Positions 7,455 through 24,340 of a stretch of DNA of 36,109 nt are shown in pieces (positions within the stretch are counted from its first letter, which is position 1; every line of letters begins with the position of its first letter). Position numbers and translations under genes: made by a program. This DNA is from Ignavibacteria bacterium (lineage in GTDB: Bacteria > Bacteroidota > Ignavibacteria > UBA10030), in contig VGVZ01000030.1 of the NCBI GenBank assembly GCA_016873805.1, positions 1 to 36,109 of the forward strand, given 5' to 3'. The notes below the pieces were generated by a model, which ran no database searches, had not been told where the DNA came from, and saw nothing but the letters and a program-made list of their open reading frames with translations.

Positions 7455-8111
7455 TCAGCGCCCCGGAGTTCGTTCGAATACAAGTACGCGCCAGACAAAA
7501 CTGGCGTCTTCATAGCGCAGAGCAAAGCCGCTGGAGAGGATCATTCCTCTCAGCACTCCCCAGTCATGCCAATAGGGATGAAAAGACGTCCGCAAAAGCC
7601 GGTTGATGAATATCTGGAGCTTGAAGGTCAACTTGATGAGGATGTGTTCACGGGGGTGGCTCAACGCGTACACTCCGGTTGTCTTCCCGAGAGAGGCCGC
7701 GAGAAGGGCTTTCGGGTTGTCGTAGCAGCATACCACCTTGTCGAGGAGTGTAATGTCCGCCCGGTCGACTGTGTCGGCCACCTGTACGAAATCCTCTGCG
7801 ACGTATTCAACCCGATCCTTCACCCCGAATTCAATGGAAAGCTTTCGCGCCTCCTCAAGCATCCCGATTGAAACCTCGATACCGGTTGCTCGTTGCGCCC
7901 CCTGCGTCAACAGCGTGAGGTGAAGCGACCCAACACCACAGCCGATGTCAAGAATATGGCGGAACGAAGAGCCGTCGGAACCGACCCCCCGGAGGATCAT
8001 CGTTTGAATCTTGTCCGGCCCTTTCTTCCGAAAATCTTTGGCATATCGTTTCGACCAGCGAGAGAAAAAGCGATTTGTTCCCTCGCACAACTGAGACCGG
8101 CAACAGTTCAT
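7455..8111 (-). CDS. Class I SAM-dependent methyltransferase (intact copy)
   Basis: A 218-residue cytoplasmic methyltransferase. Motif I, ILDIGCGVGSLHL (about 53-65), binds S-adenosylmethionine. An acidic residue follows beta-2 (TGIEVS), and VEYVAEDF provides the motif II region. There is no DNA- or rRNA-specific NPPY signature, so a small-molecule or protein substrate is more likely. The ATG at 8111 has GAGGAGG about 5 nt upstream. The first 47 or so codons lie in a 453-bp segment repeated at 23884-24336, where the gene stops after a few foreign codons. In the reconstructed ancestral locus this gene followed the GNAT gene by 79 nt. Confidence 0.85.
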   Translation of the reverse strand: MNCCRSQLCEGTNRFFSRWSKRYAKDFRKKGPDKIQTMILRGVGSDGSSFRHILDIGCGVGSLHLTLLTQGAQRATGIEVSIGMLEEARKLSIEFGVKDRVEYVAEDFVQVADTVDRADITLLDKVVCCYDNPKALLAASLGKTTGVYALSHPREHILIKLTFKLQIFINRLLRTSFHPYWHDWGVLRGMILSSGFALRYEDASFVWRVLVFERTPGR

Positions 8112-8425
8112 TCCAACCTCCTCGTTTCCTCATCTGTCCCACACATCATGAACCCCAAAGGCGAAGTCCACCGGCAAACGTCTTCGGCTCTCAGTGGTCT
8201 TTTCCCAACACGAAATCGATCTCGTAGAACTGATAATCGGACTTCGTCATGCCGAGTCGCTCATACGTTTGCTTTGCCCGAGTATTCGCGCCGTCAACAT
8301 AAAGACGGATTCCGCACACATCGGGATTCTCCCGTGCGATCCGGAGAACGTGCTCATGCAGTGTCCGATAGATGCCGTGTCGTCGGAACTCTTCCCGAAC
8401 AAAGACGCTCTGGATCCACCAGAAG
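7969..8425. repeat. Long direct repeat, left copy (island boundary)
   Basis: Bases 7969-8421 are identical, base for base, to 23884-24336 (offset 15,915). One mismatch and three more matches follow, after which similarity ends. The repeat covers the 5' end of the methyltransferase gene, the 79-nt spacer and the 3' end of the GNAT gene. Left of 7969 the methyltransferase continues; right of 8425 unrelated island DNA begins. Confidence 0.97.
8191..8425 (-). pseudogene. GNAT acetyltransferase 3' fragment
   Basis: This is the last 78 or so codons of the acetyltransferase that is complete at 24106-24582, from FWWIQSVFVREEF to the C-terminal GKDH, with identical DNA up to 8421. Upstream of 8425 the frame continues into unrelated codons and meets a TAG at 8494-8496. 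The N-terminal half of the GNAT fold is missing. With motif A split from the N-terminal strands and no proper start, it should be inactive. It marks the left junction of the nos island. Confidence 0.9.
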
Positions 8426-8586
8426 TATGTGATATAACTTCGTTTCCCAGCGGGTGTCTGCTTCCGGGCCGGAACCTTGTGACCGGATGAATTCTACAAA
8501 CCACCCATCTGCCTCGGAAGTTCTTCTTTCGCAGGGGGTAGCCGAGCCGAGCGGCATGTGCGGTCTTCGTGAGAAAATCGCCGAGC

Positions 8587-9048
8587 TTACCGTCTTCTTT
8601 CCTGCGCTGCTTTCTTCACAAGCTCCATCATCTGGTCGTAATCTCTTGCCGTGCCGCCGTATGTTGCGGCAAACGAGACGGCCGCTTCCTTCGAAGCAAA
8701 AGCCAACACCGGCATCATCGCTCTTGCAGGAATGATGACGCTTCCAGTCACGAACCAGGCTTTATGAGCATCAATCATAGCTAGAGCGGTGAAGTCCACC
8801 ACTCTCATCGATGTTGCTATGTTTCCCCCACGCATTGCGACAGCACATCCCAAACCACACGCCCAGACCGTCAAATCGCCGGTGACAGTCTCGACCCTCG
8901 TCAGCATGTTCTCAAAGACATCCATGTTGCACTGCGGGCAAGTGCCGACTTTCTCTCCGAGAGCCGGGCGAAGTTGATCCAGCGCCGTTTGAGCTAGCGT
9001 GACTTGCACGAGCAGAAAAAGCAGCGGGAGTTGTTTGAGAGTGTTCAT
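8587..9048 (-). CDS. Second NosL-like copper-binding protein
   Basis: A 153-residue exported protein with a signal peptide (hydrophobic 6-19, likely cut near TLAQT) but no lipobox. CPQCNMDV at 37-44 matches the CxxCxM copper-binding motif of NosL, and a second pair, CGLGC (64-68), could add ligands. The phrase KAWFVTG and the C-terminal GGTARDYDQMMELV also fit the NosL fold. It is the last gene of a three-gene unit with the copper receptor and the DUF6448-like protein, 39 nt after the receptor stop. It probably receives Cu(I) in the periplasm, while the lipoprotein NosL at 15002-15541 serves NosZ assembly. The region 8426-8586 beyond its stop has no gene. Confidence 0.8.
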   Translation of the reverse strand: MNTLKQLPLLFLLVQVTLAQTALDQLRPALGEKVGTCPQCNMDVFENMLTRVETVTGDLTVWACGLGCAVAMRGGNIATSMRVVDFTALAMIDAHKAWFVTGSVIIPARAMMPVLAFASKEAAVSFAATYGGTARDYDQMMELVKKAAQERRR

Positions 9049-9087
9049 AGGCGCCAGTCCTCTTTCGTTTGCAGTGAAGAGATGTCC

Positions 9088-11355
9088 TTATCGGGCGCTG
9101 ATTTCGATGTTTGCGAAGAATGACCGGCCCGGTTCATTGATCGGTGTGCCGGTGGTTCGAAGACGTCTGTTCAGATGCTCATAGTACGCCTTGTTGAAAA
9201 CGTTGTTCACTCCAATTGTAGCGTTGATCACCCTGTGAGGTTTCAGTCGGAGTGCACCATTCACAACGACAAATCCCGGCGTCGGTGTTTCGCCGAACGA
9301 TGGCGAGATGTCCCGCTGCGCGGCGGCAGCCCGAACGGAAACCTCGGGAAGCACCTTCCCTCCCATCATCGTCGCAGCAAGCACAGCAGTCATATCCAAG
9401 GGGGGGATTTCCGGTAGCGGCTCACGCGCTCTGTTGTTCCGCGCCCGGGTGTAGGACGCCTTCAGTTGCAGATGGAGATAATCGGCAACTTCCGTAACCG
9501 ACGTTAACTCGAACCCCGCCAATGTTGCCGACTCGATGTTGCAAAACCGCTTCACTCCAAACACATCAGGATTCTTTGCAGGAAGGGGCGTAATCTCCGA
9601 CGAGATGTAATCGGTCACATGGGAGTAAAAAAGACTACCGCTCACGGTGCCGATCATCGTTCTCCCCCTCAACCCGACGTCGATAGTTGTATTCACTTCC
9701 GGTTTGAGGAATGGATTCCCCACGTAGTCGAGCCGGTCAAGCCCGATGGGGAAGAAATTGATATACCGCTCGGCGATGCCGGCGCTTCGCACACCGCGTC
9801 CGGCATGGGCTGCCAGCTCCACATTCCGGCTCAGCGTGCGTGTCAGACCGAAACTGAAACTGGGGTTGATTTGCTTGAGCTTCAACGATCCATACAGGTC
9901 TCGAAATCCGGCATCGGGTTTGTCCGGGGAAGCGGAGTTGACATCAAGCCGCCAGGACCCAATGAACTGAAACCCTGCAATCGCCGAGCGATACTCCAAG
10001 AACACACCGGCGTTCGTGATGCGCGCGTCCTGCCAGACGTTATCGAAAGCAGTCGCGCCGGCCCTCGGACCTGTGAGGAAGGTCCGCGTCCTGAGGCCCG
10101 ACTTCTCTGTTCGCATGAAGTCGGTTCCGACGAAGAGGACGGACGACCCGACGATCATCCCCACTTCAGCACGCGCGCCTGAGACCGCCGTCGAAACGTG
10201 CGTCTCTGCAGTCACCGTTGCTGCGGTCGGCCGGAAACGATTATCCATCGTATGATCGACATCGGATCGATATGCTTTGAGGGTAAGGGAGGCGAGAACC
10301 GAACTCAGGTTCTTCGCGGCATAGTCGGCAATGAGGATTCTCGTGTCGTCTTTTCGTTCATCCATCGGGAGCGAGGGGAACTGAATATCACGCGCGGCGA
10401 CATGCCGCAGAGAAAGCTGCAGCCGGTGTTGCACGAGCGGGTTCACCCCGAACTTGAGTGTGAAGTCCCGCTTTGTAAAGTTCGAAGGAACCGTTTCACC
10501 GTGACCGTCGGTGTAGTCACCGTACTTCTTTATCCCTCCGCTCAACCGGAAGTCGTAAAGGCGACTGCCGCCATTAATCGTGAGACGATTCTGCCAGCCG
10601 TTGAACGTCGAATCATAGCCGCTCGTGAGATTTCCACCGACGCTCCACGTTTCGTACTGCTCGGGTGCAGCCATGACGAGGTTAATCACGCCGCCGAAGG
10701 ATGGCCCGAACCGCAGGGCGAAGGGACCTTTAAGCACTTCGATCTTCTCAAGATCGCCAGCGGTCACGTGCGAGGCGGGGGGATCCATCCTGCTCGGGCA
10801 CGCTCCCTCCACGCGCGCCTCTCCATCGATCTGGACATTAAGCTGGTCAGAACGAAATCCTCGCAACACAGGGTCGAGTCCGTACCCTCCACGACGAATG
10901 GCCGAAACGTTCGGCACGCTTCGCAGGAACTCACCCAGATCTTTTTGCGGGTGGGCAGCAGTCTCCTTTATCAGAATGTCTGATTGACGGTAGCCGACGA
11001 CGCGACCTGCCGTTACCACAATTTCCTCGACAAGGATGATCGGCCTTTCTTTCAGAGAAACCTCCAGGTACTTCATCTCACCTTCCGCCAGTACGATTGA
11101 GGTGTCGTGGCGTTCGTAGCCGATGAAGGAGAATACCAACGGGTACTCTCCGGCGGCGAGCCGATCTAATCGAAAGTGTCCCCTGAAATTCGACACCTCT
11201 CCCTTTCCACGGTCTTTCACCCAAACATTCGTTTCACCGAGAGGCGCGCCAGTACGGGCATCAAAGACAAATCCTTCGATGGCCCCTAACCGTTGCGCGG
11301 AGGCAACCATGGCGGTCATCGTCATTGCCACAAATAGGACGGAAAACTGGCGCAT
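9088..11355 (-). CDS. TonB-dependent copper receptor (OprC/NosA-like)
   Basis: A 755-residue outer-membrane receptor. The order is signal peptide (1-20), a carboxypeptidase-regulatory-like beta domain (about 25-105, GFVFDARTGAPL to FSFIGYERH), plug domain (about 110-235, with VLKGPFALRFG) and a 22-strand barrel ending in the aromatic-rich PGRSFFANIEISAR. The plug contains GACPSRMDPP, that is CxxxM followed by PP. This matches the CxxxM copper site of OprC/NosA receptors, which supply copper for N2O reductase. It sits between the DUF6448-like gene (38 nt upstream) and the NosL-like gene (39 nt downstream). The likely role is copper uptake under conditions where NosZ is made. No TonB/ExbBD genes are in the window. 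Confidence 0.87.
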   Translation of the reverse strand: MRQFSVLFVAMTMTAMVASAQRLGAIEGFVFDARTGAPLGETNVWVKDRGKGEVSNFRGHFRLDRLAAGEYPLVFSFIGYERHDTSIVLAEGEMKYLEVSLKERPIILVEEIVVTAGRVVGYRQSDILIKETAAHPQKDLGEFLRSVPNVSAIRRGGYGLDPVLRGFRSDQLNVQIDGEARVEGACPSRMDPPASHVTAGDLEKIEVLKGPFALRFGPSFGGVINLVMAAPEQYETWSVGGNLTSGYDSTFNGWQNRLTINGGSRLYDFRLSGGIKKYGDYTDGHGETVPSNFTKRDFTLKFGVNPLVQHRLQLSLRHVAARDIQFPSLPMDERKDDTRILIADYAAKNLSSVLASLTLKAYRSDVDHTMDNRFRPTAATVTAETHVSTAVSGARAEVGMIVGSSVLFVGTDFMRTEKSGLRTRTFLTGPRAGATAFDNVWQDARITNAGVFLEYRSAIAGFQFIGSWRLDVNSASPDKPDAGFRDLYGSLKLKQINPSFSFGLTRTLSRNVELAAHAGRGVRSAGIAERYINFFPIGLDRLDYVGNPFLKPEVNTTIDVGLRGRTMIGTVSGSLFYSHVTDYISSEITPLPAKNPDVFGVKRFCNIESATLAGFELTSVTEVADYLHLQLKASYTRARNNRAREPLPEIPPLDMTAVLAATMMGGKVLPEVSVRAAAAQRDISPSFGETPTPGFVVVNGALRLKPHRVINATIGVNNVFNKAYYEHLNRRLRTTGTPINEPGRSFFANIEISAR

Positions 11356-11393
11356 TGTTGTAGCACCCTCATCGAATGAGAGACCATCCCGAC

Positions 11394-11984
11394 TCAGTGG
11401 TGATGCTCTGTCTGCTCGAGCATTCCGTGCAGGCGTTCGACAAAGTGGATGTACTCCACGTAGGCTTCGACATATTTACGTCCGTCGGCCACACTCCGCT
11501 CGGCTGTCTTCTGCTTCTCGAAGGCCATGTTGAAGCGCGTGCGGAGCTTTTCGGTGACAGCGGCGCTCAGGTGCTTGACAAGATCGTCAACAGAGCCCGA
11601 CTCCAGCGCGCCATCGGCGTGCCGGATGGATGGCTCGATGGGGGCGTTTTCCGGTTTCAAGCCGGTATACGACTCTCCTTCGCCCATGCGATGAAGGCGA
11701 ACAACGGTCTCAAAGAAGAAACGGTCGGCAACTTCTTTTGCCTCACCCCCAGATTTCTTGACCCGCATCGTCCTTGTGAACGCGTCACGCACTTCGTTCT
11801 CATGTTCGGGTTTGACCCACTTCAAGACGAGTGTAACATCTCCTTTCTCGATGGCCGCCTTCGCGGTTTTCACCACGGGGCCGTTCATCGAGTCGCAGTG
11901 CGATGCGCTGATTGCGGGGAATAGCATCAAGAATACGACAGCAAGAATGACGACGGGAATACAGTTCCCCAATCGAGTCTTCAT
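11394..11984 (-). CDS. DUF6448-like exported protein
   Basis: A 196-residue exported protein of unknown function. The ATG at 11984 is preferred over the one at 12002 because GGAGGAG lies about 9 nt before it. After the signal peptide (hydrophobic 7-25) the mature protein starts HCDSMNGPVV, then KAAIEKGDVTLVLKWV and a helical region to the end, closing in EHHH. This matches the family I recall as DUF6448, whose hallmark is the HCDSxxGPVV start. The Cys/His start and the His tail are possible metal ligands. It leads the copper-receptor transcription unit inside the nos island, which suggests a role in copper handling, but that is inference only. Confidence 0.7.
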   Translation of the reverse strand: MKTRLGNCIPVVILAVVFLMLFPAISASHCDSMNGPVVKTAKAAIEKGDVTLVLKWVKPEHENEVRDAFTRTMRVKKSGGEAKEVADRFFFETVVRLHRMGEGESYTGLKPENAPIEPSIRHADGALESGSVDDLVKHLSAAVTEKLRTRFNMAFEKQKTAERSVADGRKYVEAYVEYIHFVERLHGMLEQTEHHH

Positions 11985-12038
11985 GGTTAATCGCTCCTCC
12001 ATTGTTATTCATAAGCAATTGCTCATCCCAGCGTGACG

Positions 12039-12067
12039 ATAGTATTCAATCGTTTTCAATCCGACAA
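12039..12067 (-). promoter_or_regulatory. Candidate promoter of the copper-uptake unit
   Basis: Read on the minus strand, TTGTCG (12062-12067) and TACTAT (12039-12044) are separated by exactly 17 nt, a fair -35/-10 pair. It lies about 55 nt before the start at 11984. The 12003-12262 gap holds no gene and separates the nosDFY end from this unit. No convincing FNR or NnrR box was seen. Confidence 0.4.
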
Positions 12068-12262
12068 TGGTGTCGTCACTACGGGGCTCTTCTTGCTGTG
12101 GCTGTTCATGTCTCTACCACAATAACGTTCCCACGGAATGTTTGCCTGCCGACAATAGCCAGGCGAGCCATCCTCGTATTGCACAAGACGCTGACTAGTT
12201 ACATTCATGAAAGACCTGGCAGAACTCGGTGATCCTGCGCGAGACCTGTTGGGTCTCTTCCG

Positions 12263-13054
12263 TTAGAAGTCCTTCTGTATGAATCTCCTGAGTGCCAGAA
12301 GGAAGGGGAATGCCGTCCAGACGACGAGCGATCCGAATGACACGACCATTCCCGTTACTGAACCAAAAAATTCTTCGAACACTGCACCGGTGTATCCCAT
12401 CAACGCCGAAATATCGAATTGCAGCATCAGAGCGATTCTCGCCAGGTCGATGGGATTGAACAACGTCATCACGATCACGGGTTGCTCCATCGGATACTCA
12501 CGGAACGTCAGCGTCGCGAGGAGGATCAGTCCGTCATAGATCACGGCGAAGAAAAGCCAGAGGAGGATGGATACTCCAAAACCGCGGCCCTTATCCTCAT
12601 TCACCACGGCGATCAGTAATGCCAAAGCGACGAAAATCAGCGTCAGAAAAATGCCCGCGCCGATGAGGGCGACGACGGTCGGCGTATTCCCCGCCTCGCC
12701 AACGCCGTGAATGACGAACGGCATCGTAACGCCAATCACGAAGGCCAGCGCGAGCGGAAGCGCGAGACCGGCATGCATGCCGACGAACAGCCACTTCCGA
12801 TCGACCGGCTGCGAGAGCAGAAGCTCGATGAACTCGCGCGAGTTATAGGCATACATCGTTCCGAAGACAAGGGAGACGAGCGGGATAATAAGGAGCGTGA
12901 CGTTCATTAGGCTCAACATTACCTTTGACGCATCGCCGCCGAATTGGAACAGCGCTTCGGAGATGACGAGAAAGAACAGCGCATAGGCGAGCATCCACCT
13001 ATTGCGGATGACGTTGTGGAATTCGTATTTGAGGATTTTCAGCGTCGTCTTCAT
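12263..13054 (-). CDS. nosY: NosY, ABC-2 membrane permease for Cu-site assembly
   Basis: A 263-residue membrane protein with about six hydrophobic helices and a cytoplasmic N-terminus (MKTTLKILKYEFHNVIRNRW), the usual form of NosY. YNSREFIELLLSQPVDR in the first cytoplasmic region is typical of ABC-2 permeases of this group. With NosF it forms the transporter that works with NosD to supply sulfur for the CuZ cluster of NosZ in the periplasm. Its start overlaps the nosF stop by 4 nt (13051-13054). It is the last gene of the main nos transcription unit before a 278-nt gap to the next start. Confidence 0.9.
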   Translation of the reverse strand: MKTTLKILKYEFHNVIRNRWMLAYALFFLVISEALFQFGGDASKVMLSLMNVTLLIIPLVSLVFGTMYAYNSREFIELLLSQPVDRKWLFVGMHAGLALPLALAFVIGVTMPFVIHGVGEAGNTPTVVALIGAGIFLTLIFVALALLIAVVNEDKGRGFGVSILLWLFFAVIYDGLILLATLTFREYPMEQPVIVMTLFNPIDLARIALMLQFDISALMGYTGAVFEEFFGSVTGMVVSFGSLVVWTAFPFLLALRRFIQKDF

Positions 13055-13761
13055 TTGCCGTTGTTCTCCATCAGACGGGCGATGCCGCGTTCGAGGGTCG
13101 GTTCACCCGTCGTCGAGATAAGGTCATGGGGCTTGCCGTCATACAAGACCTTTCCGTCGAGCAAGAAAACAACCTTGTCCGACAGCTCTTCCACCTCGTG
13201 CATGTTATGCGACGTAAGGACGATCGTCTTCCCCTTTTGCCGCTCGTTGAGAATTCTGTCTTTCATCAGACTGCTTGCCAGGGGGTCAAGGCCGGCCGTG
13301 GGTTCGTCGAGAATCAAGATGGCGGGATTGAACATGAGCGCCAGCACCGCACTCACCTTCTGGCGTGTGCCGCCGGAAAGTGTGCGAACAGGCCTCTTCC
13401 GTTCCGACCCCAAACGAAAGAGCTCGATCAGTTCCTCTTCGCCGGCGTTCTTCACGTTACGGAGATCCTTCACCATCTCGATCAGTTCATCGACGGTCAG
13501 GTTCTCCGGAAAGCGGGCAATCTGCGGCATGTAGCCGATATCGTTCCTGTACTGCCATGTGCCATTCATACACACGCCGTCGATGGAGACGGCGCCGCTG
13601 TCGTGCCGCACGAGTCCGAGGACGCATTTGATGAGTGTCGTTTTTCCGGAGCTGTTGGGTCCGACGACGGCAGTGATCGAGCCGCGTTCGATCGCGAAGC
13701 CTACTCCCTTGAGAACGTGGAGCGATCCAAATCTCTTGTCGATGTTCCGAATCTCGATCAT
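13051..13761 (-). CDS. nosF: NosF, ABC transporter ATPase
   Basis: A 236-residue cytoplasmic ATPase. Walker A is GPNSSGKTT (about 34-42), the signature is LSGGTRQK, Walker B is AILILDEPTAGLDP and the switch His is in VLTSHNMHE. The Walker A has Ser-Ser where Gly-Ala is usual, but the GxxxxGKT frame is complete. It pairs with NosY and NosD in CuZ maturation. Both ends show ATGA-type 4-nt overlaps with nosD and nosY, so the three products are translationally coupled. Confidence 0.92.
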   Translation of the reverse strand: MIEIRNIDKRFGSLHVLKGVGFAIERGSITAVVGPNSSGKTTLIKCVLGLVRHDSGAVSIDGVCMNGTWQYRNDIGYMPQIARFPENLTVDELIEMVKDLRNVKNAGEEELIELFRLGSERKRPVRTLSGGTRQKVSAVLALMFNPAILILDEPTAGLDPLASSLMKDRILNERQKGKTIVLTSHNMHEVEELSDKVVFLLDGKVLYDGKPHDLISTTGEPTLERGIARLMENNGK

Positions 13762-15005
13762 CGTATTCTCTGCATTGCGGGCTTCCGATCCACCAGTGAT
13801 TCGGGTGTCAGCGTCGGCAGAACGCGCTCGGCCAGATCGAGCAGGTCAATGAAGACACTCCGGAGCAGGATCAATGTCGGCGGATGGCGCTCAACAACGT
13901 AGGAGAAGAGCCGCACGGGGCGGTATGGAACGTCTCCGTAGCCGTCGCCGGTCATGTCGTATCCCCGGTAACCGCTCCAGTAGTTCCCCTCGAACCTGCT
14001 GAAGGTCTGGCGGCTGTTCGTCGCGACGTCGAACGAGTTGGCGATGAAATTGTTCTCCGTGAAGTGGTTTTCGACCGAGTTCGCCATGATGCGCACGGCC
14101 CACCCGTTCTGTGTGAACTCATTCCGCTCAATCGTGATGCGGGACGACCCTTCCGAGTAAAGACCGACAGTATTTCGGAAAAACCGGTTCCGCGCAACGT
14201 AACTATCTGTGATATCCTTCAGGAGCAGGCCGTACGCCACCGGCCCCCAGTTGTGCTCCATCAGGTTATCGATCATCTGCACGTTCTTCGTGTACATAAC
14301 CGCGACTCCAGCACCGTTACGCTGAAAGACGTTGCGCCGATAGATGGAACCGTTGGAGAACATAAAATGCAGGCCGTAGCGGAGATTGTCCTCGCTAACG
14401 TTTCCTTCGATGATGCTGTCGATCACCCACTCCAGATAGATTCCATCCCGATGTCCGCGGATGTGATTACCTTCGATAGTGACGTCTCTGCAGTACCAGA
14501 GGTGAATGGCATTCCCCGACGAGGCCTCGCGGACGGCCTCTCCTTGAATGTCGTTTCCGATGATGCGCGTGTTGGAGGACTTTGCCAGATAGATTCCGAA
14601 GAACGTCCTCCGCAGCCGGTTGCCTTCAATCACACAGCCGTGCGCATCCTCCAACTTGATACCGGCGCGGTCCTCAACATAGCTGACCCCGACGTTCGCA
14701 ATCTGCAGTCCCTTGATGGTCACGTTGCTGGCACGCACCGAGAGGACGGTGTGGCGATCCTCACCGTCGAATACAGGAAAATCTCTCCCAACGATCTCAA
14801 CCGACTTGTCGACGACGATGCTACCTTCGCGGTACACGCCCGGATGCACAACGATCCTGTCTCCATCACGAGCGAGGCGGAGCGCTGCGCTCAGTGTTCG
14901 AACAGGCCCATCTGGATGGACGACTATCTCGCCAGCGGAGACGGTGGCAGTAACGACTGCAACCGCCCCAAGAGCGAAGCACGAAAGGCGACGCAAAGCG
15001 TTCAT
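13758..15005 (-). CDS. nosD: NosD, periplasmic beta-helix Cu-site assembly protein
   Basis: A 415-residue exported protein. The start at 15005 is chosen because its ATG overlaps the nosL stop (ATGA), GGGGAGGA lies just upstream, and a good signal peptide (MNALRRLS, hydrophobic, cut near TVSAG) follows. The mature part is a right-handed beta-helix of CASH/NosD repeats, with repeated I-x-G-N-x-I and I-x(2)-N-x-F/V turns such as GCVIEGNRLR, DVTIEGNHIRG and SRITIERNEFT. It works with NosF and NosY in building the CuZ centre of NosZ. The frame is open further upstream to 15062, but that extension would place the signal peptide internally. Confidence 0.92.
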   Translation of the reverse strand: MNALRRLSCFALGAVAVVTATVSAGEIVVHPDGPVRTLSAALRLARDGDRIVVHPGVYREGSIVVDKSVEIVGRDFPVFDGEDRHTVLSVRASNVTIKGLQIANVGVSYVEDRAGIKLEDAHGCVIEGNRLRRTFFGIYLAKSSNTRIIGNDIQGEAVREASSGNAIHLWYCRDVTIEGNHIRGHRDGIYLEWVIDSIIEGNVSEDNLRYGLHFMFSNGSIYRRNVFQRNGAGVAVMYTKNVQMIDNLMEHNWGPVAYGLLLKDITDSYVARNRFFRNTVGLYSEGSSRITIERNEFTQNGWAVRIMANSVENHFTENNFIANSFDVATNSRQTFSRFEGNYWSGYRGYDMTGDGYGDVPYRPVRLFSYVVERHPPTLILLRSVFIDLLDLAERVLPTLTPESLVDRKPAMQRIR

Positions 15006-16230: not shown

Positions 16231-16255
16231 ACTGACTTGAACAAACCTTCTCGAC

Positions 16256-18223
16256 CTACTCGCCTTTCCCCGTGCTGAACGAGAGGGGAACGGTGGAGCC
16301 TGCCGGTGAAACGCGAATATAACCCTGCATCTCCTGGTGCAGCGCCGAGCAGAAATCGGTGCAGTAGAACGGGAAGACGCCGACTTTCTTCGGTTCCCAC
16401 ACCAACGTGCCGGTTTCACCCGCCATCAGGAGCAATTCGGCGTTTTGGCTCCCCTTCACGGTAAAGCCGTGCGGGATATCCCACTCCTGCTCAATGTTGG
16501 TGACATGGAAATACACCTTGTCGCCGATACGGATCCCCTCGATGTTATCCGGCGTAAAATGAGACCGCACTGCCGTCATGTAGATGCGGACAATATTCCC
16601 TTCGCGCACAACTCTGGCCTGCTCGGCCTTCTTCGTTGCCCGAGGGTGTTTGTTCTCCTCCAGCTTGTAGATCTGAACGGACTTGTCCATGATCTTCTCC
16701 GCCGGAATCGCCTGGGCATAGTGCGGCTCGCCGACGGTCGGGAAATCGAGCAGCAACCGCATTCTGTCGCCCGTGATGTCGATCAGCTGTGCCGCGTGTG
16801 CAAGCTCGGGACCGGTGGGGAGATAGCGGTCCTTGGTGATCTTGTTCATCGCCACCACGTACTTGCCCCACGGCTTGCGTGTGTTGCCACCGGGGATCAT
16901 GATATGACCGAGCGAGTAATACGTGGGGATGCGATCGACAACTTCCCACGTACCGATCTTCCACTTGACCACTTCGGAAGAGATGAAGTGAGAAGTATAC
17001 GCGTAGCCCTTCCCGTCGAACTCGGTGTGTAGCGGTCCAAGCCCCGGGTTCTGCACCTCACCGGCAATCGTGGCCTCGTATTTTAGAACGGGGATGCCGT
17101 TGATTGTCGTTTCGAACTCTTTATTTTCGATCGCCTTCAACATCTTGCTGAAGGAGTGGACGGGGATGACGGCTGCGAGCTTGCCCCCTGCCGCAATGTA
17201 CTCTCCGGTTGGATCGACATCCACCCCGTGTGGCGACTTGGGTGTCGGGAGGAAGTAGATCAGGCCCGGACAAGCGTTGGGGTCCAGCACCGTCACAGAC
17301 GTTCGCTTTTCCGACGTCGTGATTCGAGTAGCATGGTCGCGGTAGTTATTGTAGTACTCTGCCGCCATCTTCTTCCCCTTTCCTTCCTTCAGATACTGTT
17401 CCGCCACCTTCCAGTTTACTGCTGCGATGAAGTCTTTATCGTTCCGTGATGCGCGCACCTCCAGCAAGGTATGGGCTTCCTCCGTGTTGTAGCTCGTGAA
17501 AAACGCCCACCCGTGCGATGGTCCCTTGCCGGCGCTGGCAAGGTCGTAATTGTATCCCGGCACGACGATCTGGAATGCCACATTCATTTTCCCGTTTTTT
17601 GGGTCGACGCCGATGAAGCTGATCGTCCCGCGGAAGTTTTGCTTGTAAGTTGAGATCGGAACGTCTGCCTGCGGGATCGGCACCCCGAAGCGCGTGCTGG
17701 CGACGATGTACTCGGAGTTTTCCGTCGTGAACGGTGAGGCGTGGTTGCCGGCGGAGTTGGGAATTTCGATCATCTCCACGGTCTCGAACGTCGCCAGGTC
17801 GATCCTCGCGACCCTCGGCGTGTTATTGGCGTTGATGAAGAGCCACTTGCCATCCGCCTCTCCATTTGTCTGAGAAAGTACGGTGTGGTGCGAATCGTCC
17901 CATGGGAGGAATCCGGAAGATGTATTCAGCATCGGCTTGGTTTCCTCACTGAAGCCATAGCCGTTCTCCGCATTCACCGCGAAGACCGGGATGATCTTCA
18001 GCAAGCGGCCCGACGGCAGTCCATAGACCGACACCTGCCCGCTAAACCCTCCGGAAAGAAAGGCATAGAATTCATCGTAACTGCCCGGCGGAACATACAC
18101 GGCCTGCGCTGCCTCGCCCGTCACCAGCGCAGGTTTTTCCGGGCAACCCATCCAGATAAACGCCCCGGCCAACAGAAGCACAACGACACTCCACCCCACA
18201 TTTGAAATGCGACGCGTTTTCAT
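16256..18223 (-). CDS. nosZ: Nitrous oxide reductase NosZ, clade II type
   Basis: A 655-residue periplasmic copper enzyme reducing N2O to N2. The N-terminus (MKTRRISNV, then hydrophobic 11-26 to GC) is a Sec or lipoprotein-type signal. Two arginines are present but not the RRxFLK Tat consensus, which fits clade II. CuZ histidines appear in their usual contexts: DDSHHTVL (112-113), GNHASPF, KSPHGVD, GPLHTEF, LGHIMIP and GEPHYAQ. The C-terminal cupredoxin has CuA ligands in CTDFCSALHQEM (Cys621, Cys625, His629, Met632), plus an upstream His in DIPHGFTV. AAGGAGG lies about 7 nt before the start. It is preceded by electron-transfer genes and followed by assembly genes. Confidence 0.97.
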   Translation of the reverse strand: MKTRRISNVGWSVVVLLLAGAFIWMGCPEKPALVTGEAAQAVYVPPGSYDEFYAFLSGGFSGQVSVYGLPSGRLLKIIPVFAVNAENGYGFSEETKPMLNTSSGFLPWDDSHHTVLSQTNGEADGKWLFINANNTPRVARIDLATFETVEMIEIPNSAGNHASPFTTENSEYIVASTRFGVPIPQADVPISTYKQNFRGTISFIGVDPKNGKMNVAFQIVVPGYNYDLASAGKGPSHGWAFFTSYNTEEAHTLLEVRASRNDKDFIAAVNWKVAEQYLKEGKGKKMAAEYYNNYRDHATRITTSEKRTSVTVLDPNACPGLIYFLPTPKSPHGVDVDPTGEYIAAGGKLAAVIPVHSFSKMLKAIENKEFETTINGIPVLKYEATIAGEVQNPGLGPLHTEFDGKGYAYTSHFISSEVVKWKIGTWEVVDRIPTYYSLGHIMIPGGNTRKPWGKYVVAMNKITKDRYLPTGPELAHAAQLIDITGDRMRLLLDFPTVGEPHYAQAIPAEKIMDKSVQIYKLEENKHPRATKKAEQARVVREGNIVRIYMTAVRSHFTPDNIEGIRIGDKVYFHVTNIEQEWDIPHGFTVKGSQNAELLLMAGETGTLVWEPKKVGVFPFYCTDFCSALHQEMQGYIRVSPAGSTVPLSFSTGKGE

Positions 18224-18264
18224 ACTGTATCCTCCTTGGTTGGTAGTGGTATTGCGTTGAAGCG

Positions 18265-19467
18265 TTATTTGCGAGTGGATTTCTCAAGCCTGGCGGCTTT
18301 CTCGTTCGCTTGAGTCAGAAGCTCAACCAGCCTCTGTCTCTCTTCATCGGTGAGAAAGATCTGTCCTCCGAGCACCGCTCCCATCGTCCCGATCGGCTCC
18401 TGGAAGAATTGCTCAATCGTGCGTCCCACCTTACGCGGGACATTTGCGGCCGCGCGACTCAAGTCGGGCCCAATAGCTGCTGCCGATTCGATACCGAAGA
18501 CGGAAACCGAGTGACACACAAAGCATCCTTTGTTCACAAAAAAGGCACCTTCTCCTTCGCGCATTCGGCGTTCACGCTCGAGTTCTTCGGGCGTCGGTAC
18601 ATCAGCCAGCGCCGCCACCGCCTGCGGATAATACTGCCGGGGAAATGCAGCCTGTTTCCAGCTCAGCGTCAGCATCGTAAGGGCAATCCGCTCCCTTGGC
18701 GTCAGTTTGAAGTCGGGCATAATCGTCGTCGGGGTTACCATGCGCGGATCGCGATAGTGAAGGAGGTGCCAGGCAAAGAGCGACGGCCTCCCGACAACCC
18801 TGCCGTAGTCGGATTGTTCGGGCAGCTTGTTGCCGGCGTAAGTCAGGTCAGGGCCCAGAACACCGCCGCGACCGTTAATGATATGACATGCCCGACAGTT
18901 TTTATCCCTGACGATCTTCTTCCCAGTGTTGATGTACTCCGCGCCGGCCGTCTGGCTATCGTACCGGTGACAGACATTGCAGTTGATTTGCATCAGCGTG
19001 TTCCGCTCGGTGATCCGATGTAACTCTTGAAGCTCCTGCCCGTGCAGAGGGTCTTCCCAGTGCTCGACCATGCCGTGGGCATCCTCTTTCTTGAGAGCGT
19101 ATCCCTGGCCTCCGTGACAAACGGTGCAGCCGTACTGTGCCACCGGGTGCTTCTCGAGAATCTCTTTCGAGTGCGTTCGGTACGGATGAGGAGCCTGCTC
19201 TAATCCTCGCCACTCGTGACCGAGGTGGCAGGTCATGCAGCGATCAGTCCGACGGAGATCGCGCAGGTAGATTTGCTTGATACCCGTTTCCACACCATCG
19301 GCCTTCTCGGGTCCAAGTTTTTCCGCAACGAGGGCTTTGAAGTCCCTCTGGTACTGCTTCCACGCCGGAGTCGCGGAAGTGAAGAAGAGCATGCCCGTCG
19401 CAATGAGACCGACGATGCCCAGCGCAAAGATGATGATCGAATCTCTCTTGAAGCTCTTCTTGTCCAT
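18265..19467 (-). CDS. Membrane-anchored pentaheme cytochrome c
   Basis: A 400-residue protein with one N-terminal membrane helix (about 10-30) and a periplasmic part carrying five CxxCH heme motifs: CMTCH 77, CTVCH 114, CNVCH 163, CRACH 191 and CFVCH 315. Hemes 4 and 5 sit in class I-like folds; TTIMPDF (Met250) is a likely axial Met for heme 4, and VLGPDLTYAG follows it as in monoheme c domains. The first three hemes lie in a compact NapC/triheme-like region. It lies between cytochrome b and NosZ, 41 nt before nosZ, and is the natural carrier from the Rieske/b module to the CuA centre. The last heme domain could act as a swinging donor. Confidence 0.92.
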   Translation of the reverse strand: MDKKSFKRDSIIIFALGIVGLIATGMLFFTSATPAWKQYQRDFKALVAEKLGPEKADGVETGIKQIYLRDLRRTDRCMTCHLGHEWRGLEQAPHPYRTHSKEILEKHPVAQYGCTVCHGGQGYALKKEDAHGMVEHWEDPLHGQELQELHRITERNTLMQINCNVCHRYDSQTAGAEYINTGKKIVRDKNCRACHIINGRGGVLGPDLTYAGNKLPEQSDYGRVVGRPSLFAWHLLHYRDPRMVTPTTIMPDFKLTPRERIALTMLTLSWKQAAFPRQYYPQAVAALADVPTPEELERERRMREGEGAFFVNKGCFVCHSVSVFGIESAAAIGPDLSRAAANVPRKVGRTIEQFFQEPIGTMGAVLGGQIFLTDEERQRLVELLTQANEKAARLEKSTRK

Positions 19468-19485
19468 GGTCGAACCAGTCGGTTG

Positions 19486-20829
19486 TTAATAGACTTTCGG
19501 CAGTACGGGCCACGATTCCCACGGCCAGTAGAATTCCCAGTACGGTCCTCGCATAAACGTGCCGATCACGGTGAGGATGATGATCATGAGGCAAACGGCG
19601 ATGAAGACGATGTTCTGCCTCGTGCGTGTCCGGTCAAACCAAATGCCGGTTGCAGCAGCCGGACTCTTGTCCAGATACGGCCAGAGCAAAAGTACAATCA
19701 CCAACACGCCGGGAATCAGCACGCCACCGATAAAGCTTCCGTCAAACGTGATGCCGGCGACGGTGAATGTGGTGATACTGACCAGCTCCTGCAGCCAGAG
19801 GAAATACCATGGCGCCTTGGCGGGATTTGGCGTGACGTTCGGATTGGCTGCCTCCTCCAACGGAGCGCCGACGAAAAGGCTCATCACCGCCACCGCCACG
19901 AACGTGGACAGCAGCACGAGGGCGATTCTCCGCGTGAGAACGGGAACGGAGTTGACCGTGTGTTGCTCTTCATCTCGCAGCGTCGTCTCCACCTGAACCG
20001 TCCTTCCCGCCGTGAGGCCGAGCAAGGAGTACGTCTTGCTCTTCACACCTCCCTCCTGCTTCTGCTTCTCCTGTGAGAGCACGAGGGGGTCGACACACGC
20101 AAGGCCGCCATCCTTCCTGACTCGCCACATGTGATAGGAAAGAAGGAGGAGGACGACAAGCGGTAGGAAGAAGCAGTGGAGTACGTAGAACCTGATGAGG
20201 GCGTTCTGGTCGATCTCGTGCGCACCGAGGAGGAAGTACCTGACTTCCTCTCCGACGAGGGGGATACTTTTTGCAATGTTGGTCCCGACCGTCACAGCCC
20301 AATAAGCGAGCTGGTCCCACGGCAGGAGATAGCCGGTAAAGGAGAGGAAAAGAGTTACCAGCAGGAGGACGACGCCGATGATCCAGTTCAGCGGGCGGTT
20401 CTGGTCGGTAGCGATGCCGTTCTTGTATGCGCCGGCGAGGAAAACACGGACCATGTGGAGGAACACGACCGCTACCATCAGATGTGCGGCGTTTCTGTGC
20501 ATCGCCCGGATGAACGCCCCGAACGAAACGACATACTCAAAGTCTTTCACAGTCTGATATGCGCGTTCCACCGAGGGGACATAGAGAAACATCAACACAG
20601 CGCCGGTGAGAGTGAGGATGAGAAACAGGCCGGCCGTGATCGTCCCCAGCCACAGCGAGTAACTCCAGGAGAGACTGCGCAGCGTAGTTTTGGCGGGGAA
20701 CCAGTGAAAGAGGAGATTTCGGACGATCGACTCGCCGGCTTCTTTCTCGGACCTTGGAATAAACGTCCAGAAGATCTTCCGGCCGTTGGGCTTGAGGTTG
20801 GCGACTTTCGTTTCGGCGTTCATAGGCAT
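19486..20829 (-). CDS. Cytochrome b of a Rieske/b quinol-oxidising module
   Basis: A 447-residue protein in which cytochrome b6-like and subunit IV-like parts are fused, with about eight or nine helices. Heme b ligands are complete: His111 and His125 (13 residues apart), His218 and His233 (14 apart). The quinol-site PEWY motif is replaced by APWYF (in NPAKAPWYFLWL), as in several menaquinol-oxidising bc complexes. A charged insert (about 245-300, including QEKQKQEGG) links the two halves. With the Rieske protein encoded just before it (10-nt gap) and the pentaheme cytochrome after it, it should oxidise menaquinol and pass electrons outward. Confidence 0.93.
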   Translation of the reverse strand: MPMNAETKVANLKPNGRKIFWTFIPRSEKEAGESIVRNLLFHWFPAKTTLRSLSWSYSLWLGTITAGLFLILTLTGAVLMFLYVPSVERAYQTVKDFEYVVSFGAFIRAMHRNAAHLMVAVVFLHMVRVFLAGAYKNGIATDQNRPLNWIIGVVLLLVTLFLSFTGYLLPWDQLAYWAVTVGTNIAKSIPLVGEEVRYFLLGAHEIDQNALIRFYVLHCFFLPLVVLLLLSYHMWRVRKDGGLACVDPLVLSQEKQKQEGGVKSKTYSLLGLTAGRTVQVETTLRDEEQHTVNSVPVLTRRIALVLLSTFVAVAVMSLFVGAPLEEAANPNVTPNPAKAPWYFLWLQELVSITTFTVAGITFDGSFIGGVLIPGVLVIVLLLWPYLDKSPAAATGIWFDRTRTRQNIVFIAVCLMIIILTVIGTFMRGPYWEFYWPWESWPVLPKVY

Positions 20830-20838
20830 CGCTTCATT

Positions 20839-21336
20839 CTACACAGTCAGTTTTGAGTTTCGTTCAACACGCTGATCAAGGTCGGCTACGAGCTTTCCAT
20901 CTTCGGGAGCAATTTCCAGTCTGACCCACTCCAGCGGTCTTGGCGCGGGTCCTTCATAGTTCATCCCATCGCCATAGAACTTCGAGCCATGACAGGGGCA
21001 GTGGAACTCGGAGTCGATGACGACACTTTTTCCCTCGATCTCCACCGTCTTGGGCCGGGCGAGCTTGGTGTGGTTCACCGTGCATCCCAGATGCGTGCAG
21101 ACCGCGGAGATGGCGTGGAAGGTTTCGCGGTCGCGATAGACGTACAGCTTCAGGTCGTTGAAGAACATGATCCCCTCCGGAATCTCGTGGGGATGGCCGA
21201 TCTTCACTCGGCGCAACTGTCCGTAGGTCACGTTGGGGAAGAGCGACCGAACCCACGTGAAGACATGACCGGCGAGAAGAGCCGCCACGGAGGCGAGGCC
21301 GAGTTTGTTCAGAAAATCGCGTCTTAAGAGTTTCAT
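20839..21336 (-). CDS. Rieske iron-sulfur protein, Tat-exported
   Basis: A 165-residue protein. The ATG at 21336 is preferred because GAGGGAG precedes it and because it places RRDFLNK at residues 5-11, a canonical twin-arginine motif, before the membrane anchor (about 14-28). The [2Fe-2S] ligands are in CTHLGC (Cys80, His82) and CPCHGS (Cys113, His116), with Cys85 and Cys115 for the disulfide. Rieske proteins use the Tat pathway because the cluster is inserted in the cytoplasm. It is encoded between the flavin oxidoreductase (13-nt gap) and cytochrome b. Confidence 0.95.
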   Translation of the reverse strand: MKLLRRDFLNKLGLASVAALLAGHVFTWVRSLFPNVTYGQLRRVKIGHPHEIPEGIMFFNDLKLYVYRDRETFHAISAVCTHLGCTVNHTKLARPKTVEIEGKSVVIDSEFHCPCHGSKFYGDGMNYEGPAPRPLEWVRLEIAPEDGKLVADLDQRVERNSKLTV

Positions 21337-21349
21337 CGAGCCGTCTCCC

Positions 21350-23293
21350 TCAGGATTGTTGTTCGACAGCAAGGGTTTCTGTTTCAGCGTACCACATGCG
21401 CTCCATTGTCATGGCGTCAGTCGGGCACACCACGGTGCACAACCCGCACCGAATACAGCGCTCATCGTCCTTGATCATGACGGAGAGATGGTCAGCTTCC
21501 CCGAAGCTGTAGTGGGAATCAAGACGCTCGCGCGCTCGCGCTTCCAGCTCGACGTCTTCCAGAGGGACGAGTTTGAGGCAATAGTACGGACAGATGTCGG
21601 TGCAGGCTCCGCAGAGAATGCACTTCTCGCCGTTGTAGATCGTCTGGATATGGCAAAGAAGGCATCGCCGCGCCTGTTCGAGTGCTTCGGCTTCGGCATA
21701 GTCTGTCTCTACTTCGACAATGCCGGTTCGACGGTCAATCGGAATCGTATTCGGCGCTTTGCGCGCGAAGATTTCATATCCGGCGAACGTGGAATACTCA
21801 CGGGTAGCTATTTTCTCGATCGACAGCTTGACGGCAGGCCGGCTCGAAGTCTTCCTGAGACGGTCATCGATGGACCGCGCGGCGAGCTTCCCGTTGGCGA
21901 TGGCATCGATAAGATTCCGAGGTCCGAACACGACGTCGCCCCCCGCAAAGACCCCTGCAAGAGAAGTCTCGAGCGTATCGGGATTGACCTTGATGGTGCC
22001 GGCGGGCGTCAGCTCCAGGCCACTCGATCCCTGAAGGAAATCGAGCTTCGGCCGCTGGCCGATGGCGAGGATGACGGTTTCGGCTTCGAGATGCTCGCTC
22101 ACCGTCTCGTCGTAGATCGGGTCGAAGCGTCCCTTTTCATCGTACGTTCGTTTGACGCCGATCAGGTCGACGCCGCGAACTTTGCCGTCTGCCGTCGTGA
22201 ACCTCTTGACGCCGCGCTGTGTGTGGAATCTGATTCCCTCCCGGACGGCCTCGTCGTATTCCTTCTTCCCCTGCGCCGTTCGAAGGACGGGCATCTCCTC
22301 AAACGATTCGAGACTCGTGATAACGATTTCCAGGACACCGGCGCGACGAGCTGTCCGCGCGGCATCCAGTGCAGCGTGCGCGGTGCCGTCTTCTGGTCTG
22401 ACTTTCTCATCCTGCTCGAGGGCGGCGCGCAGAGCCGTCCGCGCCGCGTCGAACGCAACAAACCCTCCGCCGATGACGATCACTTTGCGGCCGAGCGGCA
22501 CGCGGTAGCCATTGTTGATATTGATCAGAAAGTCAACGGCGTTGATAATTCCGTCGGCGTCGGCTCCCTCGACATTCATCTCCCGTGCGGCTTGCGTTCC
22601 GACACCGATGAAGATCGCGTCGAACCCCTGTCGTTCAAGTTCTTTGATGCTGAAGTTCTTCGTCAGCGGTGCGCCGGTCTGCACTTCCACACCGAGCTGG
22701 AGGATCTTGCCGATTTCCTTCTCGATGACGCTGCGCGACAGACGGAACCCCGGAATACCGTGCCTCAACATACCGCCCAGCGCATGCGTGGCCTCGAACA
22801 CGGTCACCTGATACCCGATGGCCGCCAGATCGTGCGCACAGGCAAGTCCCGCCGGACCCGCTCCGATGACGGCAACCTTGTGGCTCACTCCTTCAGATCT
22901 CCGCGCTCGCCTGTGGAAGGGCAGATGCCATGCCAGCGTATTGTCTTCCCCCTGAAGCGCTGTGGTCATGAGTTCATCCTGCGTATCGGGCGAAAGCGAT
23001 TCCACGCCGTATTTTTCGGTGACAAACCGTTTCAGCGCGCGGATGGCCACCGGCGCGTCGATGCTTCCACGGCGGCAGTAGTCCTCACACGGCGCTGCGC
23101 AGACGCGACCGCAGACAGAGACAAAGGGATTGGGAGAGCGCGCGACGAGAAAGGCTTCTTTGTAATTCCCTTCGGCGATGAGTTGCACGTACCGCCCGGC
23201 ATCGGTGTGAATCGGGCATGCTGCCTGGCACTTAACCTGTTTCTGCCAGTGCACAAAATCCGGGATTGCGACGCGGTACTTTTCTTCCATCAT
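21350..23293 (-). CDS. GltD-like NAD(P)H/FAD oxidoreductase with two 4Fe-4S clusters
   Basis: A 647-residue cytoplasmic flavoprotein. The N-terminus has the Cys-rich GltD-type region (Cys22, Cys26, Cys61, Cys65, Cys69, Cys73). Then come a FAD fold (VIGAGPAG at 142-149), an NAD(P) fold (VIGGGFVA at 273-280), a second FAD motif (VFAGGDVV) and a C-terminal ferredoxin domain with CxxCxxCxxxCP at 558-569 and 613-624. The usual GGGNxAMD reads GGGFVAFD, and a stretch at 282-319 carries DAARTA twice, an apparent internal duplication. It overlaps the Rrf2 stop by 4 nt. It may link NAD(P)H or ferredoxin to the Rieske/cytochrome b module, perhaps at the quinone; glutamate synthase activity is unlikely because no large subunit is present. 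Confidence 0.85.
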   Translation of the reverse strand: MMEEKYRVAIPDFVHWQKQVKCQAACPIHTDAGRYVQLIAEGNYKEAFLVARSPNPFVSVCGRVCAAPCEDYCRRGSIDAPVAIRALKRFVTEKYGVESLSPDTQDELMTTALQGEDNTLAWHLPFHRRARRSEGVSHKVAVIGAGPAGLACAHDLAAIGYQVTVFEATHALGGMLRHGIPGFRLSRSVIEKEIGKILQLGVEVQTGAPLTKNFSIKELERQGFDAIFIGVGTQAAREMNVEGADADGIINAVDFLININNGYRVPLGRKVIVIGGGFVAFDAARTALRAALEQDEKVRPEDGTAHAALDAARTARRAGVLEIVITSLESFEEMPVLRTAQGKKEYDEAVREGIRFHTQRGVKRFTTADGKVRGVDLIGVKRTYDEKGRFDPIYDETVSEHLEAETVILAIGQRPKLDFLQGSSGLELTPAGTIKVNPDTLETSLAGVFAGGDVVFGPRNLIDAIANGKLAARSIDDRLRKTSSRPAVKLSIEKIATREYSTFAGYEIFARKAPNTIPIDRRTGIVEVETDYAEAEALEQARRCLLCHIQTIYNGEKCILCGACTDICPYYCLKLVPLEDVELEARARERLDSHYSFGEADHLSVMIKDDERCIRCGLCTVVCPTDAMTMERMWYAETETLAVEQQS

Positions 23294-23769
23294 TTGATCC
23301 CGATCTGTTTCTTGAAGTCCTGGATGAGGAAGACGTTATCGGTGAACTGTAGGACGCGCTTTCCCTCTTTGACCTCCTTGACCAGCTCGTCGAGCGTGAC
23401 GCGGTCGAGCACGGCGCGGATCTGTCCGAGTATCTTTTGCCAGTAGTGATGGAGAGCGCACGGGTTTCGTTCATCGCAGGTCCCCGCGCGCAGAAGACAC
23501 ATCTGGAAGAAATCCGTTCCGTCGATCGACTGCAGAACATCGTAGATCGTAATCTCCCTCGGGTCGCGTGCAAGGCGAAAACCGCCCTGCGGGCCTTTCA
23601 ACGACTTCACATATTTCATTTGAACGAGAAGTCGCATCACCTTGTTGAGATACTCCTTCGGTATGGAGAGCGCGGAGGCAATCTGCTTGGAAAGGATGTA
23701 CTCGTTCTTCCCGACCGAGGCGATGAGGATGAGAGCCTGTAATGCGTATTTTGAGGTCTTGCTGAGCAC
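23290..23769 (-). CDS. Rrf2-family Fe-S transcription regulator
   Basis: A 159-residue winged-helix regulator, first gene of the nos unit. It starts at a GTG (23769) with GAGAGG upstream. The helix-turn-helix lies at about 25-50 and the wing is LKGPQGGFRLAR. Three cysteines (91, 98 and 104, spacing C-x6-C-x5-C) match the cluster-binding loop of IscR/NsrR proteins, so it probably senses NO, oxygen or Fe-S status. NsrR spacing is close but not identical, so no gene symbol is given. It overlaps the oxidoreductase gene by ATGA and sits 35 nt after its promoter, so it is likely autoregulatory. Confidence 0.9.
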   Translation of the reverse strand: MLSKTSKYALQALILIASVGKNEYILSKQIASALSIPKEYLNKVMRLLVQMKYVKSLKGPQGGFRLARDPREITIYDVLQSIDGTDFFQMCLLRAGTCDERNPCALHHYWQKILGQIRAVLDRVTLDELVKEVKEGKRVLQFTDNVFLIQDFKKQIGIK

Positions 23770-23804
23770 TGAGGTGTTCCGCCTCTCGGGAGGAACCGCA
23801 GACT

Positions 23805-23833
23805 ATCTTAGCCAACGCAAACTTGTGGGTCAA
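23805..23833 (-). promoter_or_regulatory. Promoter of the nos respiratory unit
   Basis: On the minus strand TTGACC (23828-23833) and TAAGAT (23805-23810) are exactly 17 nt apart, a strong sigma-70 type pair. It lies 36 nt from the Rrf2 GTG and inside the island, only about 50 nt from the right junction, so the cassette carries its own promoter. No clear Rrf2 operator palindrome was identified. Confidence 0.65.
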
Positions 23834-23855
23834 GAGATTCGGATATCCGCGTCCA

Positions 23856-24026
23856 CTAATTGTTTTTCCCCGTCATGTTCGACGAGCCGTCGGAACCGAC
23901 CCCCCGGAGGATCATCGTTTGAATCTTGTCCGGCCCTTTCTTCCGAAAATCTTTGGCATATCGTTTCGACCAGCGAGAGAAAAAGCGATTTGTTCCCTCG
24001 CACAACTGAGACCGGCAACAGTTCAT
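23856..24026 (-). pseudogene. Methyltransferase 5' fragment
   Basis: This begins with the same ATG, ribosome-binding site and 47 or so codons as the methyltransferase at 7455-8111, then leaves the repeat at 23884. The frame runs through nine foreign codons and ends at a TAG (23856-23858). The SAM-binding motif I is missing, so no enzyme can be made. It marks the right junction of the nos island. Confidence 0.9.
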
Positions 24027-24340
24027 TCCAACCTCCTCGTTTCCTCATCTGTCCCACACATCATGAACCCCAAAGGCGAAGTCCACCGGCAAACGTCTTC
24101 GGCTCTCAGTGGTCTTTTCCCAACACGAAATCGATCTCGTAGAACTGATAATCGGACTTCGTCATGCCGAGTCGCTCATACGTTTGCTTTGCCCGAGTAT
24201 TCGCGCCGTCAACATAAAGACGGATTCCGCACACATCGGGATTCTCCCGTGCGATCCGGAGAACGTGCTCATGCAGTGTCCGATAGATGCCGTGTCGTCG
24301 GAACTCTTCCCGAACAAAGACGCTCTGGATCCACCAAAAG
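23884..24340. repeat. Long direct repeat, right copy (island boundary)
   Basis: Bases 23884-24336 are identical to 7969-8421 in the same orientation. Here the GNAT gene continues intact to the right of 24340, and the DNA left of 23884 is island sequence. Perfect identity over 453 bp implies a recent duplication or continuing recombination. Confidence 0.97.

Follow-up and report, generated by a model that had tools for sequence, protein, structure and literature searches.

A nitrous oxide respiration operon lying between two copies of a 453-bp stretch of two host genes in an Ignavibacteria genome

Background

How much of the greenhouse gas N2O can be removed depends on the spread of N2O reductase genes. 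These genes are scattered across bacterial groups, and the best 80 relatives of the NosZ protein analysed here come from many phyla. The locus studied in this work belongs to an Ignavibacteria genome of 3.2 Mb (60 contigs, 99% complete) and lies on the 36,109-bp contig C30, which was analysed whole and is called the window below. It bears a nos operon between two copies of a 453-bp sequence. An earlier note on this DNA had interpreted the arrangement as an excisable respiratory module bounded by its repeats. The question raised by the locus is what these repeats consist of, and by which route the operon came to lie between them.

Methods

Empty sites were searched for in 31 other genomes of the same family, using protein matches to the two host genes, a methyltransferase (MT) and a GNAT acetyltransferase; matches with E <= 1e-40 were considered strong. 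The operon was compared with 12 nos clusters of the same order, 4 of them from the same family, counting matches that covered at least 60% of the query, and with 80 other NosZ loci (79 public records and G085), from which locus L064 was set apart. The NosZ tree took in 13 clusters of relatives, drawn from the 23 further genomes in which the NosZ query had a match of any kind.

Results

Sequence comparison within the window confirmed the earlier observation that positions 7969-8421 equal positions 23884-24336 without mismatch: the two stretches are in direct orientation and identical at 453 of 453 bases, with 0 bp of further identity on either side. The end coordinate given earlier, 24340, is 4 bp too far, the repeat ending at 24336. 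The copies are 15,915 bp apart and enclose a unique insert of 15,462 bp (8422-23883), which holds the nos operon. No other exact direct repeat of at least 25 bp is present in the window, and the 453-bp sequence occurs at two places in the genome at E <= 0.001. A perfect repeat of this length cannot be due to chance.

Read on the minus strand, the repeat is composed of codons 83-158 and the stop of GNAT (231 bp), a 79-bp spacer and the first 143 bp of MT. The intact MT gene (7455-8111, minus strand; Pfam Methyltransf_25/31/11) has these 143 bp, i.e. 47 codons and 2 bases, in the left copy, which further contains the spacer and a dead 231-bp 3' fragment of GNAT. The intact GNAT gene (24106-24582, minus strand; Pfam Acetyltransf_1, 3.6e-15) has its 3' half, from codon 83 to the stop, in the right copy, where the MT start region is present again as a dead 143-bp piece (23884-24026). 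The left copy completes MT and the right copy completes GNAT, and each also carries a dead fragment of the other gene. Protein searches returned the corresponding partial second matches at 23880-24026 (MT) and 8194-8424 (GNAT), a residue or two longer by chance. Both host genes stay complete because the stretch from the GNAT end to the MT start is found on both sides of the insert. When the flanks are joined across a single repeat copy, a whole GNAT and a whole MT result, 79 bp apart; the claim that a single crossover would release a 15,915-bp circle agrees with this exact rejoining. The repeats are a duplicated stretch of two host genes, and not the ends of a module as had been proposed. The best hairpin at a repeat edge (at 23883, -6.0 kcal/mol) was equalled by 2.4% of window positions and those at the other three edges by 16-23%, and no hairpin is claimed.

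The earlier note had suggested searching relatives for the same operon without the island. A strong MT match was found in 12 of the 31 same-family genomes, 11 of which also had a strong GNAT match (the exception being G015). GNAT and MT were adjacent in all of these 11 genomes, on one contig and one strand, with 8-763 bp between the matches. Nine of the 11 loci were reread in fetched stretches; the genes corresponding to 4280-5581 and 5578-7443 and an S46 peptidase were all near the pair in two of the nine, and the S46 peptidase alone in a third. MT is divided between contigs in G005, where the piece next to GNAT is the 5' part alone (E 1.2e-29), and is cut by a contig end in G019. In two of the 11 genomes with the pair, G019 and G027, a different contig carries a nosZ match. 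Outside the family, six genomes showed strong matches to both proteins, with GNAT and MT on different contigs, which in drafts proves little. Since the pair is adjacent in 11 of 11 genomes, contiguous GNAT-MT is taken as the state of the family and the nos operon as an insertion in this lineage. The repeat DNA matched all 11 family loci at 65-82% identity over 38-226 bp, and none of the 100 relatives drawn was of the same genus; the evidence for an empty site is accordingly confined to the family level. The nos operon has split the GNAT-MT pair, and the 453-bp target stretch now lies on both sides of it.

With respect to expression of the host genes, S9 and GNAT form a pair that overlaps by 4 bp. 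Now that the nos operon lies upstream, transcription of MT may come from this operon instead of from the S9-GNAT pair, running through the dead GNAT fragment in the region 8191-8490.

All annotated genes of the insert are on the minus strand, and both insert ends are single-copy in the genome. The first gene of the operon encodes an Rrf2-family regulator (23290-23769; Pfam Rrf2, 7.6e-35). It is followed by genes for a glutamate-synthase-small-subunit-like FAD/4Fe-4S oxidoreductase (21350-23293; Pfam Pyr_redox_2, Fer4_20 and Fer4), a Rieske iron-sulfur protein (20839-21372; Pfam Rieske, 6.2e-12), the cytochrome b of a Rieske/cytochrome b complex (19486-20829; Pfam Cytochrome_B, 1.8e-41) and a multihaem cytochrome c with 5 CXXCH motifs by motif count (18265-19467; Pfam Cytochrom_C, 5.7e-14). 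Next comes nosZ (16256-18223; Pfam nos_propeller, 1.8e-34), whose product scored 946 bits with TIGR04246, above the curated cut-off of 625 for Sec-dependent (clade II) N2O reductases. The membrane protein encoded at 15542-16153 has no Pfam or NCBIfam match and has a homologue in 78 of the 80 NosZ loci other than L064; from its position and from recall we take it to be NosB. The genes of NosL (15002-15541; Pfam NosL, 8.7e-13), NosD (13758-15062; Pfam NosD, 3.2e-42), the ABC ATPase NosF (13051-13761; Pfam ABC_tran, 2.8e-27) and the ABC-2 permease NosY (12263-13054; Pfam ABC2_membrane_2, 3.4e-10) follow, the last two named by position. The series ends with a DUF6448 protein (11394-12002; Pfam, 1.2e-57), a TonB-dependent receptor (9088-11355; Pfam TonB_dep_Rec_b-barrel, 4.5e-28) and a second NosL-like protein, a copper chaperone by family name (8587-9048; Pfam NosL, 1.8e-6; no NCBIfam match).

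The gene set of a clade II nos cluster is complete, with nosD, nosF, nosY and nosL identified by Pfam families and nosB by homology to other nos loci only. The NosL, TonB, DUF6448 and NosY/F/D/L/Z genes announced between the copies are indeed there; beyond the N2O and copper genes, the insert holds an electron-transfer module (cytochrome c, cytochrome b, Rieske and FAD-FeS proteins) and the Rrf2 regulator. Judging from the gene families, electrons would pass via the Rieske/cytochrome b proteins and cytochrome c to NosZ, as in ordinary clade II N2O respiration, and NosD/F/Y/L together with the TonB receptor would supply copper. Copper uptake is the likely role of the receptor, given its context; it matches its L064 counterpart, which likewise follows nosY, at 55%. 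Homologues of the DUF6448 protein were found in 3 of the 12 order-type nos clusters and 2 of the 80 other NosZ loci, at differing positions, and it is possibly a copper- or N2O-related accessory protein. The cargo appears to be an otherwise typical clade II N2O respiration operon. The copper nitrite reductase model had no match in the genome, and the cytochrome c552 (NrfA-type) model had two above its cut-off of 24.1 bits, one of 189.6 bits, in which the matched region contains a TAG, and one marginal at 24.2 bits.

The operon had also been described as promoter-bearing. One sigma-70-like match does lie in the insert upstream of rrf2 (23833-23805, minus strand), a weak candidate given that the 5 sites in the scan were fewer than the shuffled mean of 7.7 (sd 2.8). 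The strict FNR-type box pattern was absent from the window, the TTG-N8-CAA pattern was not found in 23701-24120, and Rfam gave 0 hits at the gathering threshold.

In line with the earlier note, neither integrase nor transposase was found in the 30 window proteins compared with Pfam, a set that excludes the ORFs at 8194-8490 and 33974-36109 as well as short overlapping ones, and the four tyrosine-integrase matches of the genome are all on other contigs. With 0 tRNA or tmRNA genes in the window as well, an integrase-type genomic island was rejected. A composite transposon, IS ends and dispersed repeats were likewise discarded, the insert ends being single-copy in the genome and the repeats being GNAT and MT sequence. 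An exact direct repeat of at least 40 bp spanning nosZ was found in one of the 81 other NosZ loci (L095; 83 bp, 8034 bp apart), 54 of these 81 being at least 16 kb long, so that wide repeats could be missed in this count; flanking by long repeats is therefore no visibly general way in which nos clusters move. No account of this arrangement was found in the portions consulted of the literature on nosZ with genomic islands or with direct repeats and excision.

These data bear on the proposal of a dedicated excisable module, that is, a mobile unit with the repeats as its ends whose presence switches in the population. The locus does show a discrete nos operon between long direct repeats. The identical ends, the presence of a whole operon with its own regulator and the restoration of both host genes upon excision all speak for such a unit; however, the repeats are parts of two host genes rather than element ends, no recombinase occurs among the scanned proteins, and no like arrangement surrounds nosZ in the 81 other loci, many of them short. 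We regard this proposal as very unlikely. As the repeats are parts of two host genes, a one-off target-duplicating insertion is favoured over a dedicated excision system.

How the assembly was made matters for the physical form of the locus. The sample used for this comprised 80 segments with 495,089 bases in total, one segment being 1000 N. Of the 60 longest stretches listed as shared within it, 27 were exactly 127 bp; 38 of the 80 sampled contig ends had their terminal 127-mer in common with another sampled end, and the 453-bp pair was the sole shared stretch of at least 200 bp. The shared 127-bp contig ends therefore point to a short-read de Bruijn assembly with k=127, a signature that we assume to be that of SPAdes. 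Positions 1-133 of the window belong to a stretch of 131-133 bp that recurs at the ends of contigs C4, C11 and C35; the assembly breaks at this repeat.

Since the 453-bp repeat is longer than k, the order left flank-repeat-insert-repeat-right flank contains the same 127-mers as left flank-repeat-right flank plus a circle of insert and repeat, and sequence alone cannot separate the integrated form from an empty chromosome with a 15,915-bp circle. With such an assembly, the choice of the integrated form over circle and empty site, as well as the identity of the copies, are the assembler's inference, and minor differences between them may have been lost by merging. Each of the two island junctions should be represented by 127-mers, and the step across the repeat would have been decided by read pairs or loop handling. 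The operon could accordingly be carried with one repeat copy on a free or coexisting circle in some or all cells, the chromosome likewise being empty in some or all and the assembler having walked the loop once. The 127-bp overlap of contig ends and a repeat exceeding k make both forms k-mer-equivalent, and assemblers of the SPAdes type can pass through short loops of this kind on the basis of coverage. Against a circle, no replication, partition or mobility family was detected among the scanned insert proteins, and without replication or partition functions a circle alone should be lost; a 25-base repeat pattern gave 0 exact matches in viral contigs, which is weak evidence against a circle and against phage carriage. 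We consider the circle rather unlikely, and continue with the integrated insertion.

The tetranucleotide correlation of the insert to the genome was 0.841, versus 0.593-0.837 for 20 leave-one-out 15.5-kb genome chunks; that of the window's own flanks was 0.731. A foreign composition is not supported by this test, although the G+C of the insert (0.565) is above that of all 20 chunks (0.492-0.557). This native signature suggests an origin of the insert within the species or in a close relative, or else a long residence followed by a recent move. It also bears on the possibility of an assembly chimera, in which the GNAT-MT locus of this short-read assembly in 60 contigs would have received an unrelated nos contig by error: the insert fits this genome better than does any of 8 other loci compared (at most 0.649). 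Moreover, a chimera would require two false joins, made independently of each other, to hit one and the same 453-bp stretch in register, and de Bruijn assembly should cover each junction by 127-mers. Misassembly is unlikely, and a chimera of this kind appears highly improbable.

Neither a donor copy nor a source of the operon was found. Of the 144 plasmid records with a NosZ match, 141 matched at less than 60% identity and 3 at 60-80%; with all of them at 80% or less, none is a direct source, and a plasmid origin was rejected. The cytochrome c query gave 5 pattern matches in viral contigs, with no relative among them. That two half-dead copies are perfectly identical points to a recent event, the identity itself being possibly imposed by the assembler.

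The operon also has a mixed make-up. The order clusters contained the oxidoreductase in 10 of 12 cases, the Rieske protein in 11, cytochrome b in 11 and cytochrome c in all 12, at median identities of 59%, 54%, 63% and 49%, respectively; the corresponding medians were 47% for NosZ, 33% for NosD, 33% for NosF and 31% for NosY. In the 80 other NosZ loci the medians were 68% for NosZ, a value high by design because the loci were chosen by NosZ, 48% for NosD, 50% for NosF and 46% for NosY. None of these 80 loci, many of which are cut by contig ends, showed any of the four electron-transfer genes. On the basis of identity and of presence or absence, a tree having been made for NosZ only, the operon is seemingly a hybrid of an order-type electron-transfer module joined to a nosZBLDFY set of another NosZ branch. 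The joint would be at 18223-18265, between nosZ and the cytochrome c gene.

L064, on an Ignavibacteriales MAG contig, shows the same cytb-cytc-nosZBLDFY-TonB order as the window and is its sister in the 94-row NosZ tree (SH-aLRT 99). From this shared layout and sister position, the fusion is probably older than the insertion. No MT match was obtained when the genomes that carry the three nearest NosZ loci (L063, L064 and L065) were searched, without positive control.

Discussion

The best explanation of the locus, and one that we hold to be probable, is that the nos operon entered the GNAT-MT pair by insertion with long target duplication. In this scheme the operon would derive from a conspecific or close relative, as its native tetranucleotide signature suggests, and would have been joined between two chromosome ends overlapping by 453 bp, such as could arise from breaks in two sister chromatids or from a long staggered cut that was filled in. 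By an alternative route, a circle already carrying the 453-bp piece would have integrated by one RecA crossover. Either route, whether by end joining or by crossover, would require no recombinase of the operon's own. A RecA crossover between direct repeats deletes the intervening DNA; the repeats would allow the operon to be lost, restoring GNAT-MT exactly, or to be amplified in tandem. We see here a real and unusually clear insertion scar, which is no evidence for a dedicated excision system.

From this scar the target, the duplicated length, the preserved host genes and a candidate route of reversal appear readable. If confirmed, the locus would show that insertion with long target duplication is not confined to restriction-modification genes and can involve an entire respiratory operon; it would also offer a simple PCR test for gain and loss of the operon in a natural population. 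What makes the locus interesting is that it represents a variant of an insertion mode already known, and that gain and loss can be tested on it. A broader reading, which we find unlikely, is that a respiratory pathway moves by recombinase-free target-duplicating insertion and is reversibly lost by RecA crossover, making N2O consumption in this population a presence/absence trait, with the operon integrated, missing from its site or transiently circular.

Insertion with long target duplication was reportedly treated by Nobusato et al. in 2000 (Gene 259:99). As far as the accessible parts of the papers tell, it was first described in Helicobacter pylori (PMC1643837); restriction-modification systems insert with long, variable target duplications "in the order of 100 bp" (PMC3874152), and similar insertions are dealt with in another report, in which the resulting direct repeats permit tandem amplification (PMC3031569). 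The present locus resembles these cases in that DNA without known mobility genes has a long target stretch as direct repeat on both sides, here 453 bp at 100% identity from parts of GNAT and MT. It differs in cargo and size, the known cases, from these parts of the papers, being restriction-modification genes with duplications of about 100 bp and ours a 15.5-kb respiratory operon with 453 bp, and in that the empty site is drawn from family members rather than from a sister strain.

With respect to its cargo, the locus resembles clade II nos clusters with Rieske/cytochrome b genes: the nosZ-B-L-D-F-Y order is the same, and the upstream FAD/FeS-Rieske-cytb-cytc series has the layout of the same order. 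Unlike in the order's own clusters, NosZ and the maturation genes of the window are nearer another NosZ branch, and a TonB receptor and a second NosL follow.

The nitrogen-fixation island of Pseudomonas stutzeri, in the portion of the report available, lies between cobS and gshP, with flanking repeats and reportedly neither integrase nor transposase (PMC4174501). Both are metabolic islands in a fixed gene pair, with repeats in the flanks and, as reported there and found here among the scanned proteins, no integrase or transposase; the repeats of P. stutzeri are short according to that portion, whereas ours is one long perfect repeat made of two host genes. Finally, merodiploids made by transformation in Streptococcus pneumoniae carry tandem duplications of about 100-900 kb at pre-existing repeats, according to the excerpted text (PMC3784515). 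Interchromatid recombination leaves a duplication there, in likeness to one of the routes proposed above; those repeats, as the excerpt describes them, existed beforehand, whereas here the repeat itself is new and arose from single-copy host DNA.
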